Shown in pieces: positions 32,581-38,198 of a stretch of DNA of 64,000 nt. The notes beneath the pieces were generated by a model. It saw nothing but the letters and a program-made list of their open reading frames with translations, did no database searches and was not told the origin of the DNA. The stretch lies in NCBI RefSeq assembly GCF_026802175.1, contig NZ_CP113797.1, forward strand, positions 3,449,026 through 3,513,025, given 5' to 3'. A program made the translations under genes and the position numbers. This DNA is from Thermocoleostomius sinensis A174. GTDB taxonomy: Bacteria; Cyanobacteriota; Cyanobacteriia; Elainellales; Elainellaceae. Every line of letters starts with the position of its first letter. Within the stretch, counting starts at the first letter, position 1.

Positions 32581-35424
32581 ATGTTTATAAATAAGCTTTG
32601 TTGCGTTAGTTCAACTTTGATTGCAAAGTTTAGCGATACATCAAGAATGGGAAACCTAGCAGATACGCAATCAAGTAGCTGCACTATGACCATCTCGCCT
32701 TTGCCCAATTGCCAACTTCAGGTAGAGCAAGAAAATTTACTGCGTCACGTTACCGATCGAATTCGGCAATCTCTGGAATTACAAGAAATTTTGGATGCCA
32801 CGGTTGTTGAAGTTCGGGCATTTTTGCAAACCGATCGCATTTTGATCTATAAGTTCTACCCCAATCACAATGGTCAAGTGGTGGCAGAGTCAGTCGATCG
32901 AACCCGATTGCCGTCCCTTTTAGGGCTAAATTTTCCGGCTGATGATATTCCCCTCCATGCACGAGAATTATTTATACAAGCAAGGGTGCGATCGGTGGTG
33001 GATGTGGAATCTGGTCAAATTGGGCAAAGTTCCGCTAATAACCTGAACGTAGGAGAATCTTCTCTTCAATATCGTTCGCTTGATCCATGCCATGCGGAAT
33101 ATCTCACAGCGATGGGAGTGAAGTCTTCGATGGTTGTGCCTGTGTTTTACCACGAACAACTTTGGGGATTATTAGTGTCCCACCATGCCGACTCAAAAGT
33201 TATCTCTGAAGCCCTGTTGCAAGGTATTCAACTAGTTGTCGATCAACTTTCAGTGGCAATTACTCAATCAATGTTGCTGCAACAGGTACGAGAGAAGGCT
33301 GACCGTGAAGCCACAATCAACCGCATTACTACCCTTCTGCATTCATTGCCGACGATCGAATTACAAAAAGCGTTGGATGAAACCGTGGCAGCCTTACAAG
33401 GCTCTGGTGGGAGATTGTTTGTGCAGGGTGGTTTTTTCAAAGGGCAGTATAACGCTGAGGGAATACTGGCAGGTTCCTCACCCAATTTGTATATCAGTGG
33501 TGCACAACCTACCCTTCCTGATCGAGCCAAGTGGCCATACATCGAGCAATATAGCGGTTGGACAAATCACTTTCAAACCGTTGGTGATTTTCAACCTTGG
33601 GCCATTACCGATCTGTATGAAACGCCTAGTCTGCGTAATCTGCAATCCTTTTTTCAAACGACCCCCATTCGATCGCTCCTCATTGTGCCACTGTGGATAC
33701 GCCAACAATGGGTAGGCTATTTGAGTCTTTTTCGCAATGAAATTGAAACAGAAACCTTGTGGGCTGGACAGTTCGATCCCGATGAACGTCAACGCTATCC
33801 ACGGTTATCGTTTGATGTTTGGCGAGAATCTAAGAGTGGACAGGTACACCCCTGGAGTGATGGAGATATTCAACTTGTAAAGAATTTAGGACATCAGTTT
33901 GCGTCAGCGATCGAACAAAATGAATTATATCAGCGCATTCAATCGCTCAATTTGACTTTAGAAACCCAAGTGCAAGAGCGCACAATAGAATTGCAGCAAG
34001 CAACCGAACAGCAAAAAATTCTGTTTGAAGTTGTCACTGAAATGCGTAAATCTCTTGATCTAAGTACAATTTTTGCAACGGTCACTCGGAGAGTAAGACG
34101 AATCTTACAGGTCGATCGCGTGGGAGTGTATCAGTTTGATTTAGATTCAGACTGTACAGATGGTAAGTTTGTCGCCGAAAAAGTATCATCTAAGTTTTCC
34201 TCAGCATTGGAAATCAGAATTCACGATCATTGCTTCGGTGAACTTTATCAGTCTCTCTATCAACAAGGTCGTTTACTGGTTATTAATGATATTCATCATG
34301 CAAATCTACAAAATTGTCATATCAGCATTCTCAATCGGTTTCAAGTAAAAGCCTTGATCGTTGCTCCGTTGCTGAAAGGAGAGTTCCTTTGGGGATTATT
34401 ATGTATTCACCAATGTGCCCACGTCAGGGAGTGGAAACCCAGCGAAATTCAATTTGTCAGTCAAGTGGCAGAACAGCTAAGTGTAGCCCTTGCGCAAGCC
34501 GATTTGCTAGCTCAAACGCAATCTCAAGCGAACCAGCTAGCTCAAACACTGCGGGAGCTACAGCAAGCCCAAGCGCAACTGATTCAAACCGAGAAAATGT
34601 CGAGCTTGGGGCAGTTGGTGGCAGGTGTAGCCCATGAAATCAATAATCCTGTGAATTTTATTTATGGCAATCTCAACTACATTGCCAGTTATACAGAAGA
34701 TTTACTAAGCCTGACCCAACTGCATCAGCAGCATTACAGTGAGATAGATACAACCATTCGGGAAAAAGCTGAAGCAATCGATCTAGATTTCATTAGCGAA
34801 GATTTGCCTAAAATTATTGCGTCGATGAAAATAGGAGCCGATCGGATTCGACAAATTGTGTTGTCGTTGCGCAATTTCTCTCGTCTTGACCAAGCTGAAA
34901 TGAAATTAGTCAATATTCACGAGGGTATTGATAGCACGCTGTTAATTTTGCAACATCGACTGCGTGGTAAACCAGATGTTGCAGGAATTGAACTCATTAA
35001 AACCTATGGAGACTTGCCGCTGGTTGAGTGTTATGCCGGACAGCTAAATCAAGTATTCATGAATTTGATCAGCAATGCCATCGATTCACTAGAGGAATGG
35101 AATTTGCAGCGATCGCCTCAAAGCATTGCCCAGCAGCCAGCTATTATCCGCATTTGCACCGAGGCATTGAACAATGAGCGCGTTGCCATTCGCATTTCTG
35201 ACAACGGCATGGGAATGTCAGAAGCGGTGCGGAGCCACTTGTTTGATCCATTTTTTACCACAAAACCTGTGGGCAAAGGCACTGGATTAGGACTCTCCAT
35301 TAGCTATCAAATCATCACCGATAAACATGGTGGGCAACTTCGCTGTGTGTCGGCTCCGGGGCAAGGGGCAGAATTTATTATCGAAATTCCAATTAGGCAG
35401 CCGTCCCCCACAACTCTGATATAG
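32581..35424 (+). CDS. Multi-GAF histidine kinase with a phytochrome/CBCR-like first GAF domain
   Basis: The 947-residue frame holds three GAF domains (about 65-225, 240-450, 500-660), a coiled coil ([18 protein letters not shown]), HisKA ([13 protein letters not shown]) and HATPase_c ([32 protein letters not shown]). The first GAF domain has the phytochrome-type LNFPADDIP motif (119-124) and a Cys-His pair at 170-171 ([14 protein letters not shown]), the position of covalent bilin attachment in Cph1-like and CBCR photoreceptors. No DXCF second cysteine is seen. A light-sensing role is likely but unproven. Start codons at 32581, 32647 and 32686 are all possible, none with a good Shine-Dalgarno. 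The 3' end overlaps the convergent gene by 32 bp. Confidence 0.85.
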
Positions 35425-36562
35425 GCAGTTCCCAACCTGGTAGTAATTCGGGGATGGTCAACAATTGGCCGTCCTCTAGCACAGATTCTGCGGCATTCGA
35501 TCGATACACAGTCACAGTGCGCTGGTCTGGATCAATCAACAAGCCAATGCGGATACCTTGGTTCACAAACGACAGCACTTTTTCCCGCACAGGGGCAATT
35601 CGATCGAACGCCGACTTAATTTCCATAATCAAATCTGGCATCAACTCTGGGTAAGTCCGTGGTGCTCGCTTCAGGCGTTCCTTGAGAATAAACGAACAGC
35701 GCGGGGCCACCACTTCACCATTGGTCAAACGGTAGCCAACGCTGGAACTGAGCACATATCCTAACTGACGCGGCTCTACCCAGGCAAACAAGCGGGCACA
35801 AAAGCGGGTATTGATTTCACCAGAGGTAAAATCGGCTGGAGAATCCGTCATTGATTCGTCTGAGAGGATTGGAGCGGGCGTTGAAGAGGTCATCGTAGCG
35901 GAACCGGATGCGATCGGGGATAGTTCATTGAGTACCTGCTGCCTCAAATTCGATACGTTGACGCCTAGAGCCTCTAAAACTCTCACCGCCACTCCATCAG
36001 GAACCCGCAGCGTACCAAGCAGTAAGTGTTCAGTGCCAATGTAGCCTAGCCGCAGCTGCCGAGCTTCTTGTTTAGCGTAGTTCAAAACCATTTTGGCTTT
36101 TGGCGTAAACGGAATTTCAACTCTGTCTTCCTCGTTGCCCCGTCCAATGATTTTCTCGACTTCTCGACGAGCATCTTCTAGTTTGACACCAGCTGCTTTC
36201 AGTACTTTGGCGGCAAGTCCTGTGTTTTCGGCCATCAGCCCCAGCAAAATAAACTCGGTTCCTACAAAGTTATGCCCTAAGCGGCGAGATTCTTCTTGGG
36301 CAAGCGTGATTGACTGAATAGCTTTTTCCGTAAATCGCCTAAACATTGCATGATCCTCTGGAGTTTCAAGGGGGTCTGGAAGAAAAACGGTTTCGATCGA
36401 GCAATCAAACAAATGAGCAATTTTGATCGCTAGCGGCAAACTGGGATCATATCGTCCCACTTCCAGGGCGTTAATGGTTTGCCGACTGACTCCGAGACGT
36501 TTTGCCAGTTCTGCCTGCGACCAATGGCGATCGGCTCTAAGAATTCGTAAGCGATTGTGCAT
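35393..36562 (-). CDS. HTH - ClpC N-domain - Uma2 nuclease-like fusion protein
   Basis: Three parts are joined in 389 residues. Residues 1-63 are an XRE/YozG-type helix-turn-helix ([20 protein letters not shown]). Residues 73-213 are a full double Clp_N domain, very close to the ClpC N-terminus ([57 protein letters not shown]). Glu103 and Glu178 occupy the two GTE positions that bind phosphoarginine in Bacillus ClpC. After a Ser/Pro-rich linker, residues 246-389 are a Uma2 (DUF820) PD-(D/E)XK-like domain with Asp310, Glu314 and Lys316 ([10 protein letters not shown]) and [16 protein letters not shown]. No AAA+ part is present. It may be a self-regulated DNA-binding protein that borrows ClpC substrate recognition; function is unknown. 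It is divergent from a VOC gene across a palindrome. Confidence 0.88.
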
Positions 36563-36671
36563 GGTTAGGGGAACTTTGCATCGATAGAACGGCTCTCCAT
36601 CACCATAGTCGCATGGTAAAGTAAATGAAACAGTGTGTCAATCTTGCTTTACACGCATGTTGTAAACTAAG

Positions 36672-36690
36672 TTTGTCAAATTTTGACAAA
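36672..36690. promoter_or_regulatory. Perfect 9-1-9 palindrome, likely operator in the divergent promoter
   Basis: TTTGTCAAATTTTGACAAA is a perfect inverted repeat (arms 36672-36680 and 36682-36690), extended by AA/TT two bases further out. It carries a TTGACA hexamer in each direction, so it overlaps possible -35 boxes for both the HTH-ClpN-Uma2 gene (start 36562) and the VOC gene (start 36831). I see no convincing -10 on either side. It is a good candidate site for the fusion protein's own XRE domain. Confidence 0.6.
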
Positions 36691-36830: not shown

Positions 36831-37262
36831 ATGAACCACGTGCTATTTCACCTTGCCTTTCCCGTGACCGACATTGCCGCAGCCAAAGCTTTTTATGCCG
36901 ATGGTTTAGGGTGCAGTGTAGGTCGAGAAAATGCTAATTCGGTCATTTTGAATTTGTATGGGCATCAGTTAGTGGCCCATCTAACGCACGAGACATTGAC
37001 ACCACAAAAAGGCATCTATCCGCGTCATTTTGGACTGATCTTTACCAGTGAATCAGACTGGGAGGATCTGCTAAGTCGAGCGCAACAACGAGGATTGAAA
37101 TTTTATCAATCTCCAAAGTATCGCTTCACGGGTTTACCGTTAGAACATCGCACTTTCTTTCTAGAAGATCCGTTCCATAATTTGATGGAATTTAAGTACT
37201 ACGCCCATGCCTCTGCGATTTTTGGTGAAGCGGAATATACTCAAATTGGCGATCGAGCTTAA
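36831..37262 (+). CDS. VOC superfamily (glyoxalase/dioxygenase-like) protein
   Basis: This 143-residue protein has a paired beta-alpha-beta-beta-beta fold signature: FHLAFPVTDIAAAKAFYADG at the start of module one and HFGLIF at module two. It ends FLEDPFHNLMEFKYY. His7, the His of HFGLIF and the Glu of MEFKYY are at typical metal-ligand positions. Small stand-alone VOC proteins include glyoxalase I, fosfomycin resistance and dioxygenase types; this one cannot be assigned further. It is followed after 30 bp by a potassium channel gene, probably in one transcript. Confidence 0.85.
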   Translation: MNHVLFHLAFPVTDIAAAKAFYADGLGCSVGRENANSVILNLYGHQLVAHLTHETLTPQKGIYPRHFGLIFTSESDWEDLLSRAQQRGLKFYQSPKYRFTGLPLEHRTFFLEDPFHNLMEFKYYAHASAIFGEAEYTQIGDRA

Positions 37263-37292: not shown

Positions 37293-38198
37293 ATGAGTTC
37301 ATTGTGGAATGTTTTTCTTCATGTGCAGGCGTATTTTTTCTATGCAATAAAGCAAAAAATTCAGTTTTATTTAGAGGATATTGAAACGCCAATCGGCCGA
37401 TTGATAAATTTGTCGATCGCAGGTTTAGTATTGCTATCGTCTGCTATTTTTATTGCTGAAACCTATTCCATTCCTGAGACCATCAAAATTTACTTAGATA
37501 CAGGCAATCAAGCAATTTTAGCTATTTTCACGATCGAATATCTTTTGAGGTTTTGGTGCGCTGAAAACAAAATTCGCCACCTTTTCAGCCTTTATTCATT
37601 AATTGATTTATTCGCTATTCTGCCCTTTTTGATTGTCCCACTTCATATTGATGTTGGTTTTTTAAGGATTTTTCGCTGGTTCCGCATTCTGCGACTGTTG
37701 CGCTATGTGGAAGGCAAAACAATTTTTGGATATGTCACTCGCGAAGATAGCGCGATTTTAGTGCGAATTCTGTTCACTTTATTTACGATTATTTTCATCT
37801 TTTCTGGATTAATTTATCAAGCCGAACACCCTAGTAATTCTGGACGTTTCAATACATTCTTGGATGCTATATATTTTTCGATCGCGACAATGACAACGGT
37901 CGGTTTCGGCGATTTGACCCCAACTACACAAGTGGGTCGGCTGCTAACCGTATTGATGATTTTGACTGGAATTGCACTCATTCCTTGGCAAATTGGAGAA
38001 TTAATTAAGCAACTTTTGAAAACATCTAAACAGATCAATCAAGAAATTCTTTGCATCAATTGCGGATTGTCAATTCATGATACCGATGCTCGCTTTTGCA
38101 AAATTTGTGGAAAGCCACTGGTCAAAACAGGAGATGCCTGTGAATTACCAACATTGAATGAGGAATTGACCGTCCAACAAAAACGGCAGCTAGACTGA
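37293..38198 (+). CDS. Voltage-gated potassium channel with C-terminal zinc ribbon
   Basis: This is a six-helix Kv-type channel of 301 residues. The S4 helix carries five arginines at every third position (125, 128, 131, 134, 137; RIFRWFRILRLLRY), a classical voltage sensor. The pore loop has the K+ selectivity filter TTVGFGD (201-207). After S6 and a short basic linker, the cytoplasmic tail holds a four-Cys zinc ribbon (Cys254, 257, 269, 272; CINCG ... CKICGKPL), which is not part of the usual Kv core and could serve assembly or sensing. It forms a tetramer in the membrane. It lies 30 bp after the VOC gene. Confidence 0.9.
   Translation: MSSLWNVFLHVQAYFFYAIKQKIQFYLEDIETPIGRLINLSIAGLVLLSSAIFIAETYSIPETIKIYLDTGNQAILAIFTIEYLLRFWCAENKIRHLFSLYSLIDLFAILPFLIVPLHIDVGFLRIFRWFRILRLLRYVEGKTIFGYVTREDSAILVRILFTLFTIIFIFSGLIYQAEHPSNSGRFNTFLDAIYFSIATMTTVGFGDLTPTTQVGRLLTVLMILTGIALIPWQIGELIKQLLKTSKQINQEILCINCGLSIHDTDARFCKICGKPLVKTGDACELPTLNEELTVQQKRQLD

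Follow-up and report, generated by a model that had tools for sequence, protein, structure and literature searches.

The closest described relatives of the regulator analyzed here are small XRE-type proteins. CylR2, the 66-residue repressor of the cytolysin genes of Enterococcus faecalis (PDB 1utx and 2xiu), binds, according to an excerpt of a review, a promoter overlapping that of its own divergent regulatory genes (PMC3709268). For XRE proteins more broadly, the available text of a recent study describes dimers that recognize palindromes preceding their own genes and for which the spacing matters, and it catalogues autoregulatory XRE palindromes in 223 clusters (Wang et al., 2025; PMC12565409). 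As far as that text describes them, its comparative method and idea agree with those used here. The motif strings for which we searched are absent from its running text, the motif letters being placed in figures and tables. The Caulobacter factors RtrA, RtrB, and Cdx and the phage factor TgrL are described, in the excerpted source, as recognizing one strong and one weak half-site (PMC10688885); by the same excerpt, they are XRE proteins of a group including Caulobacter, like the small XRE proteins discussed below. Among open-licence papers, our literature search returned nothing giving the TGTMAAG-N4-CTTKACA operator or the HTH-ClpN-Uma2 fusion reported here.

The window, i.e., the whole analyzed stretch of 64,000 nucleotides from Thermocoleostomius sinensis A174, contains such a fusion gene on the minus strand (35393-36562). 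The encoded protein of 389 residues is composed of a CylR2/XRE-type HTH domain (approximately residues 5-57), two Clp_N repeats (best stretch 88-140), and a Uma2 domain (236-381). Pfam detected HTH_3, Clp_N in two stretches, and Uma2, all above the curated cut-offs, with HTH_3 scoring 59.8 bits against a cut-off of 23. The solved structure nearest to the HTH part is PDB 9k3w, a small XRE regulator annotated as 'PbsX family' (E 1.2e-19), followed by CylR2, whose HTH belongs to the type found in the fusion (E 2.4e-12 and 8.7e-14). Unlike the fusion, 9k3w, with its 65 residues, has no fused domains, and CylR2 has neither Clp_N nor Uma2. The Uma2 part carries residues that are invariant across the clade, including E314 and K316. 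NCBIfam gave nothing above the curated cut-off for the fusion protein or for the products of the two genes on the other side of the intergenic region, and PADLOC returned weak HTH matches only.

Scanning of genome contigs and genome searches yielded, in addition to the window, fusions at 12 distinct loci, along with 21 HTH-ClpN loci that lack Uma2; L037, L039, L040, and L118 were left out of the comparison as coming from the same genome or having an identical upstream region. The two types form the two sides of one branch in the tree, each clade with 100/100 support, and L176 forms a long branch. L170 (64 residues, no Clp_N) was assigned to neither clade, and L120 and L122, both of the short type, are outside the 21, L122 having N5-type sites by eye. 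Of the 36 genomes in the order of the host, 4 have the HTH part: three carry the short type, and the full fusion is confined to G000. A 330-residue ClpN-Uma2 protein without the HTH domain is encoded in G048 (L008 1471-2463, minus strand).

The fusion gene is separated by 268 bp from a divergently oriented gene of the VOC/glyoxalase superfamily (36831-37262, plus strand, 143 residues), which is followed by an Ion_trans/K+ channel-like gene (37293-38198, plus strand, 301 residues). Rfam found no match at gathering thresholds between 34000 and 40000. The intergenic region holds an exact 19-bp palindrome, TTTGTCAAATTTTGACAAA (36672-36690), the arms of which, TTTGTCAAA and TTTGACAAA, are perfect reverse complements flanking a single T. 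It is indeed the perfect 9-1-9 palindrome described in the first-pass annotation, at 110 bp from the fusion start (36562, minus strand) and 141 bp from the VOC start (36831, plus strand), with TTGACA in both directions (36683-36688 on the plus strand and 36679-36674 on the minus strand). These hexamers had been proposed as -35-like elements of the two divergent genes, a role that is not supported, and the conserved promoter of the fusion gene lies elsewhere. This promoter comprises a -35 box TTGACA at 36636-36641 (minus strand, reading 36641-36636) and a -10 box TACCAT at 36613-36618 (minus strand, reading 36618-36613), 17 bp apart and with the -10 box 50 bp before the ATG. The same pair was picked by the promoter scan, and TTGACA-N17/18-TAC---T could be aligned in all 13 fusion loci including the window (N17 in 10, N18 in 3). 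For the TTGACA on the minus strand of the palindrome, no -10 box was found at 15-19 bp, the best -10 candidate for that on the plus strand is TCTGAT at 16 bp, and the scan called no promoter at the palindrome.

The conserved -35 box lies within an inverted repeat, TGTMAAG-N4-CTTKACA, the right half of which contains the TTGACA of the promoter. The candidate operator in the window, TGTAAAGCAAGATTGACA (36636-36653, minus strand), matches this pattern at 13 of 14 positions, deviating by an A in place of a C in one half. It is the highest-scoring N4 site in the 64 kb, about 20 bases away from the palindrome, and it occupies a position homologous to sites in the 12 other fusion loci. N4 sites scoring at least 12/14 were found in 11 of the 12 fusion relatives and at least 11 in all 12, against 1 of 240 shuffles, with the reservation that the loci are related and the operator counts thus not independent. 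Other gaps (0-3 and 5-10) gave sites in at most 2 of the 12 relatives. The N4 pattern was picked after viewing L037-L041, and a near-identical pattern was then viewed on small XRE loci. The test on the small XRE loci is therefore not blind, and the seven fusion loci gathered after the motif was first noticed, together with the later HTH-ClpN loci, provide the cleaner check; all seven score at least 11, and six at least 13. L165 has the lowest N4 score, 11, and the promoter site of L160 scores 12, with a better site (13) at -192. In most fusion relatives, a degenerate copy of the operator approximately 21-22 bp downstream overlaps the -10 box. The nearest relative, Calothrix sp. HK-06 (L160/L037), carries extra operator-like sites, one scoring 11/14 at -212 and the other 13/14 at -192 (L037 2789-2826), which face its divergent membrane-protein gene. 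In the window, we also considered a second N4-spaced site, TGTAAACTAAGTTTGTCA (36661-36678, no strand assigned), which overlaps the palindrome, as a further operator, and rejected it because its weak score of 11/14 falls within the chance range.

Related operators were found beyond the fusion clade. Among the 21 HTH-ClpN loci, 20 possess N5 sites (TGTCAAG-N5-CTTGACA type) scoring at least 13, whereas shuffles reached at least 12 in 3 of 420. These sites are paired at a distance of 34-35 bp in 20 of the 21 loci (L171-L191 except L175, in which no operator site was found). As read from the sequences, the upstream copy holds a -35-like TTGACA, and the downstream copy starts about 16 bp after it. 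The paired sites bracket the apparent promoter in a strikingly constant arrangement. Small XRE relatives from many phyla also carry the N4 operator, with the best site in the 1.5 kb upstream scoring at least 12/14 in 48 of 56 loci, at least 13 in 37, and below 12 in 8. No shuffle of 168 reached 12, and seven control patterns gave 0-2 of 56. This count leaves out L087 and L094 as well as the ClpC-only loci (L096, L098, L099, L101-L108, L110, L111, and L113-L116). The small XRE operons in question (L042-L112) come from, among others, Xanthomonas, Caulobacter, Runella, and one haloarchaeon, and the operator mostly lies 400-850 bp ahead of the XRE gene, seemingly in front of another gene that is co-transcribed with it.

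An inverted-repeat operator at the own promoter, as expected for CylR2-like XRE regulators, was thus found for the fusion, solely by comparison. As far as can be judged from the sequences, the fusion protein is probably an autorepressor acting through TGTMAAG-N4-CTTKACA at 36636-36653, with the palindrome not being its main operator. The first-pass annotation had suggested self-repression via the palindrome; repression through an inverted repeat of the TGTCAA/TTGACA type at the own promoter likely holds, yet the probable site is at 36636-36653 instead. In the mechanism that we infer, the CylR2-like XRE domain of the fusion would bind the inverted repeat as a dimer and cover its own -35 box, thereby blocking RNA polymerase, and release of repression might depend on the Clp_N and Uma2 parts, perhaps through a signal received via Clp_N. 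The palindrome, which repeats these half-sites at N1 spacing and is lineage-specific, would then be a chance or decayed repeat or, at the most, provide an accessory contact. A guessed operator is hereby replaced by one with comparative support and exact coordinates for a probe. Since the Clp_N-fused cyanobacterial XRE regulators have conserved and presumably self-directed operators, sensing by a Clp N-domain on a repressor becomes directly testable.

Unlike the operator, the palindrome is not conserved. The first-pass annotation named conservation beside homologous fusions as a check, and absence there as counting against the palindrome as an operator; it is absent beside the 12 fusion and 21 HTH-ClpN homologues, where the best matches within 300 bp upstream are 10-14 of 19. 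Likewise, it was not found upstream of 29 VOC homologues (best match 9-13 of 19), a set in which L149 and L153 do not start with ATG and L141 offers only 67 bp of upstream sequence. Of the 386 cyanobacterial genomes, the 385 others all lack the exact pattern, and its own genome has a single copy, which rules it out as a genome-wide motif. Near copies in the own genome show no excess over the reversed-pattern control (5 and 3 versus 5 and 2).

Whether the palindrome is a functionless chance repeat is, in our estimation, an even call. Dinucleotide shuffles of the 64 kb contain 0.3 palindromes of the 9-1-9 type on average (at least one in 15 of 60 shuffles), so that a single one somewhere in the window is unremarkable, and this one had been picked out of the whole window and is conserved nowhere. 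However, the probability of finding it in the shuffled 268-bp intergenic region is only 0.0012 for a loop of 1 (0.0036 for loops of 0-3), and its half-sites, TGTCAAA and TTTGACA, are common to the palindrome and the adjacent operator. Such a locally improbable, exact, and intergenic palindrome could also be bound by an unrelated regulator that controls either the VOC gene or both genes, with a TTGACA facing the VOC gene and TCTGAT following 16 bp on. We consider this improbable, as the palindrome is missing upstream of the 29 VOC homologues, and the lack of further copies in the own genome and in the 385 others means that no regulon is visible.

It is also possible, albeit doubtful, that the fusion HTH uses the palindrome as an accessory operator, whose extra half-sites upstream of the main operator would let a protein array stretch across the intergenic region, perhaps as far as the divergent VOC promoter. 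Five TGTMAA/TTKACA half-sites cluster within 53 bp (36636-36688), and the 177 bp on the VOC side hold three of them (shuffle P 0.0064), a number seen in 0 of 1074 window stretches of equal length. This over-representation makes an accessory, lineage-specific role possible; however, two of these three extra half-sites are those of the palindrome itself and thus not independent. The centers of the palindrome and the operator are 36.5 bp apart, near the 34-35 bp that separate the paired sites in HTH-ClpN loci, and the extra upstream sites of Calothrix sp. HK-06 offer a parallel. The available text of the XRE study reports weaker but real binding in EMSA at changed half-site spacing (PMC12565409). 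On the other hand, although the palindrome half-sites match the operator halves at 12 of 14 positions, their N1 spacing places them 3 bp closer than the N4 of the fusion clade and the small XRE proteins, and N1 sites scoring at least 12 were found in none of the 12 other fusion loci and none of the 21 HTH-ClpN loci.

The suggestion in the first-pass annotation that the VOC protein and the K+ channel are linked to the regulation by the fusion found no support. As a core cyanobacterial gene, the VOC gene was found in 58 of the 60 related genomes, whereas the full fusion is confined to one of 36 genomes within the order, and none of the VOC, channel, kinase, or ABC neighbors of the window turned up around the 15 fusion loci whose flanks were examined. 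The pairing of the fusion with the VOC gene is therefore local to this genome, and its neighbors are not conserved.

A wider interpretation, which we offer as rather speculative, is that the HTH-ClpN(-Uma2) proteins constitute undescribed self-repressing switches of cyanobacteria, in which the N-domain of a Clp chaperone, a sensor of substrates or adaptors, is coupled to a CylR2-like operator. The spacing would have changed together with the protein, with N4 in the fusion clade and N5 tandem pairs in the short clade, and the palindrome would extend the array toward the VOC gene at this locus.

A large regulon of N4 sites in the own genome is not supported by the mismatch counts, which show no excess over the control (3 versus 5 with one mismatch and 54 versus 65 with two), a point that also weighs against the proposed autorepression through this site. 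In G708 and nine other fusion-bearing genomes, N4 sites total 95 versus 38 for the reversed control, counted on one strand, a surplus that perhaps reflects a wider regulon or paralogues.
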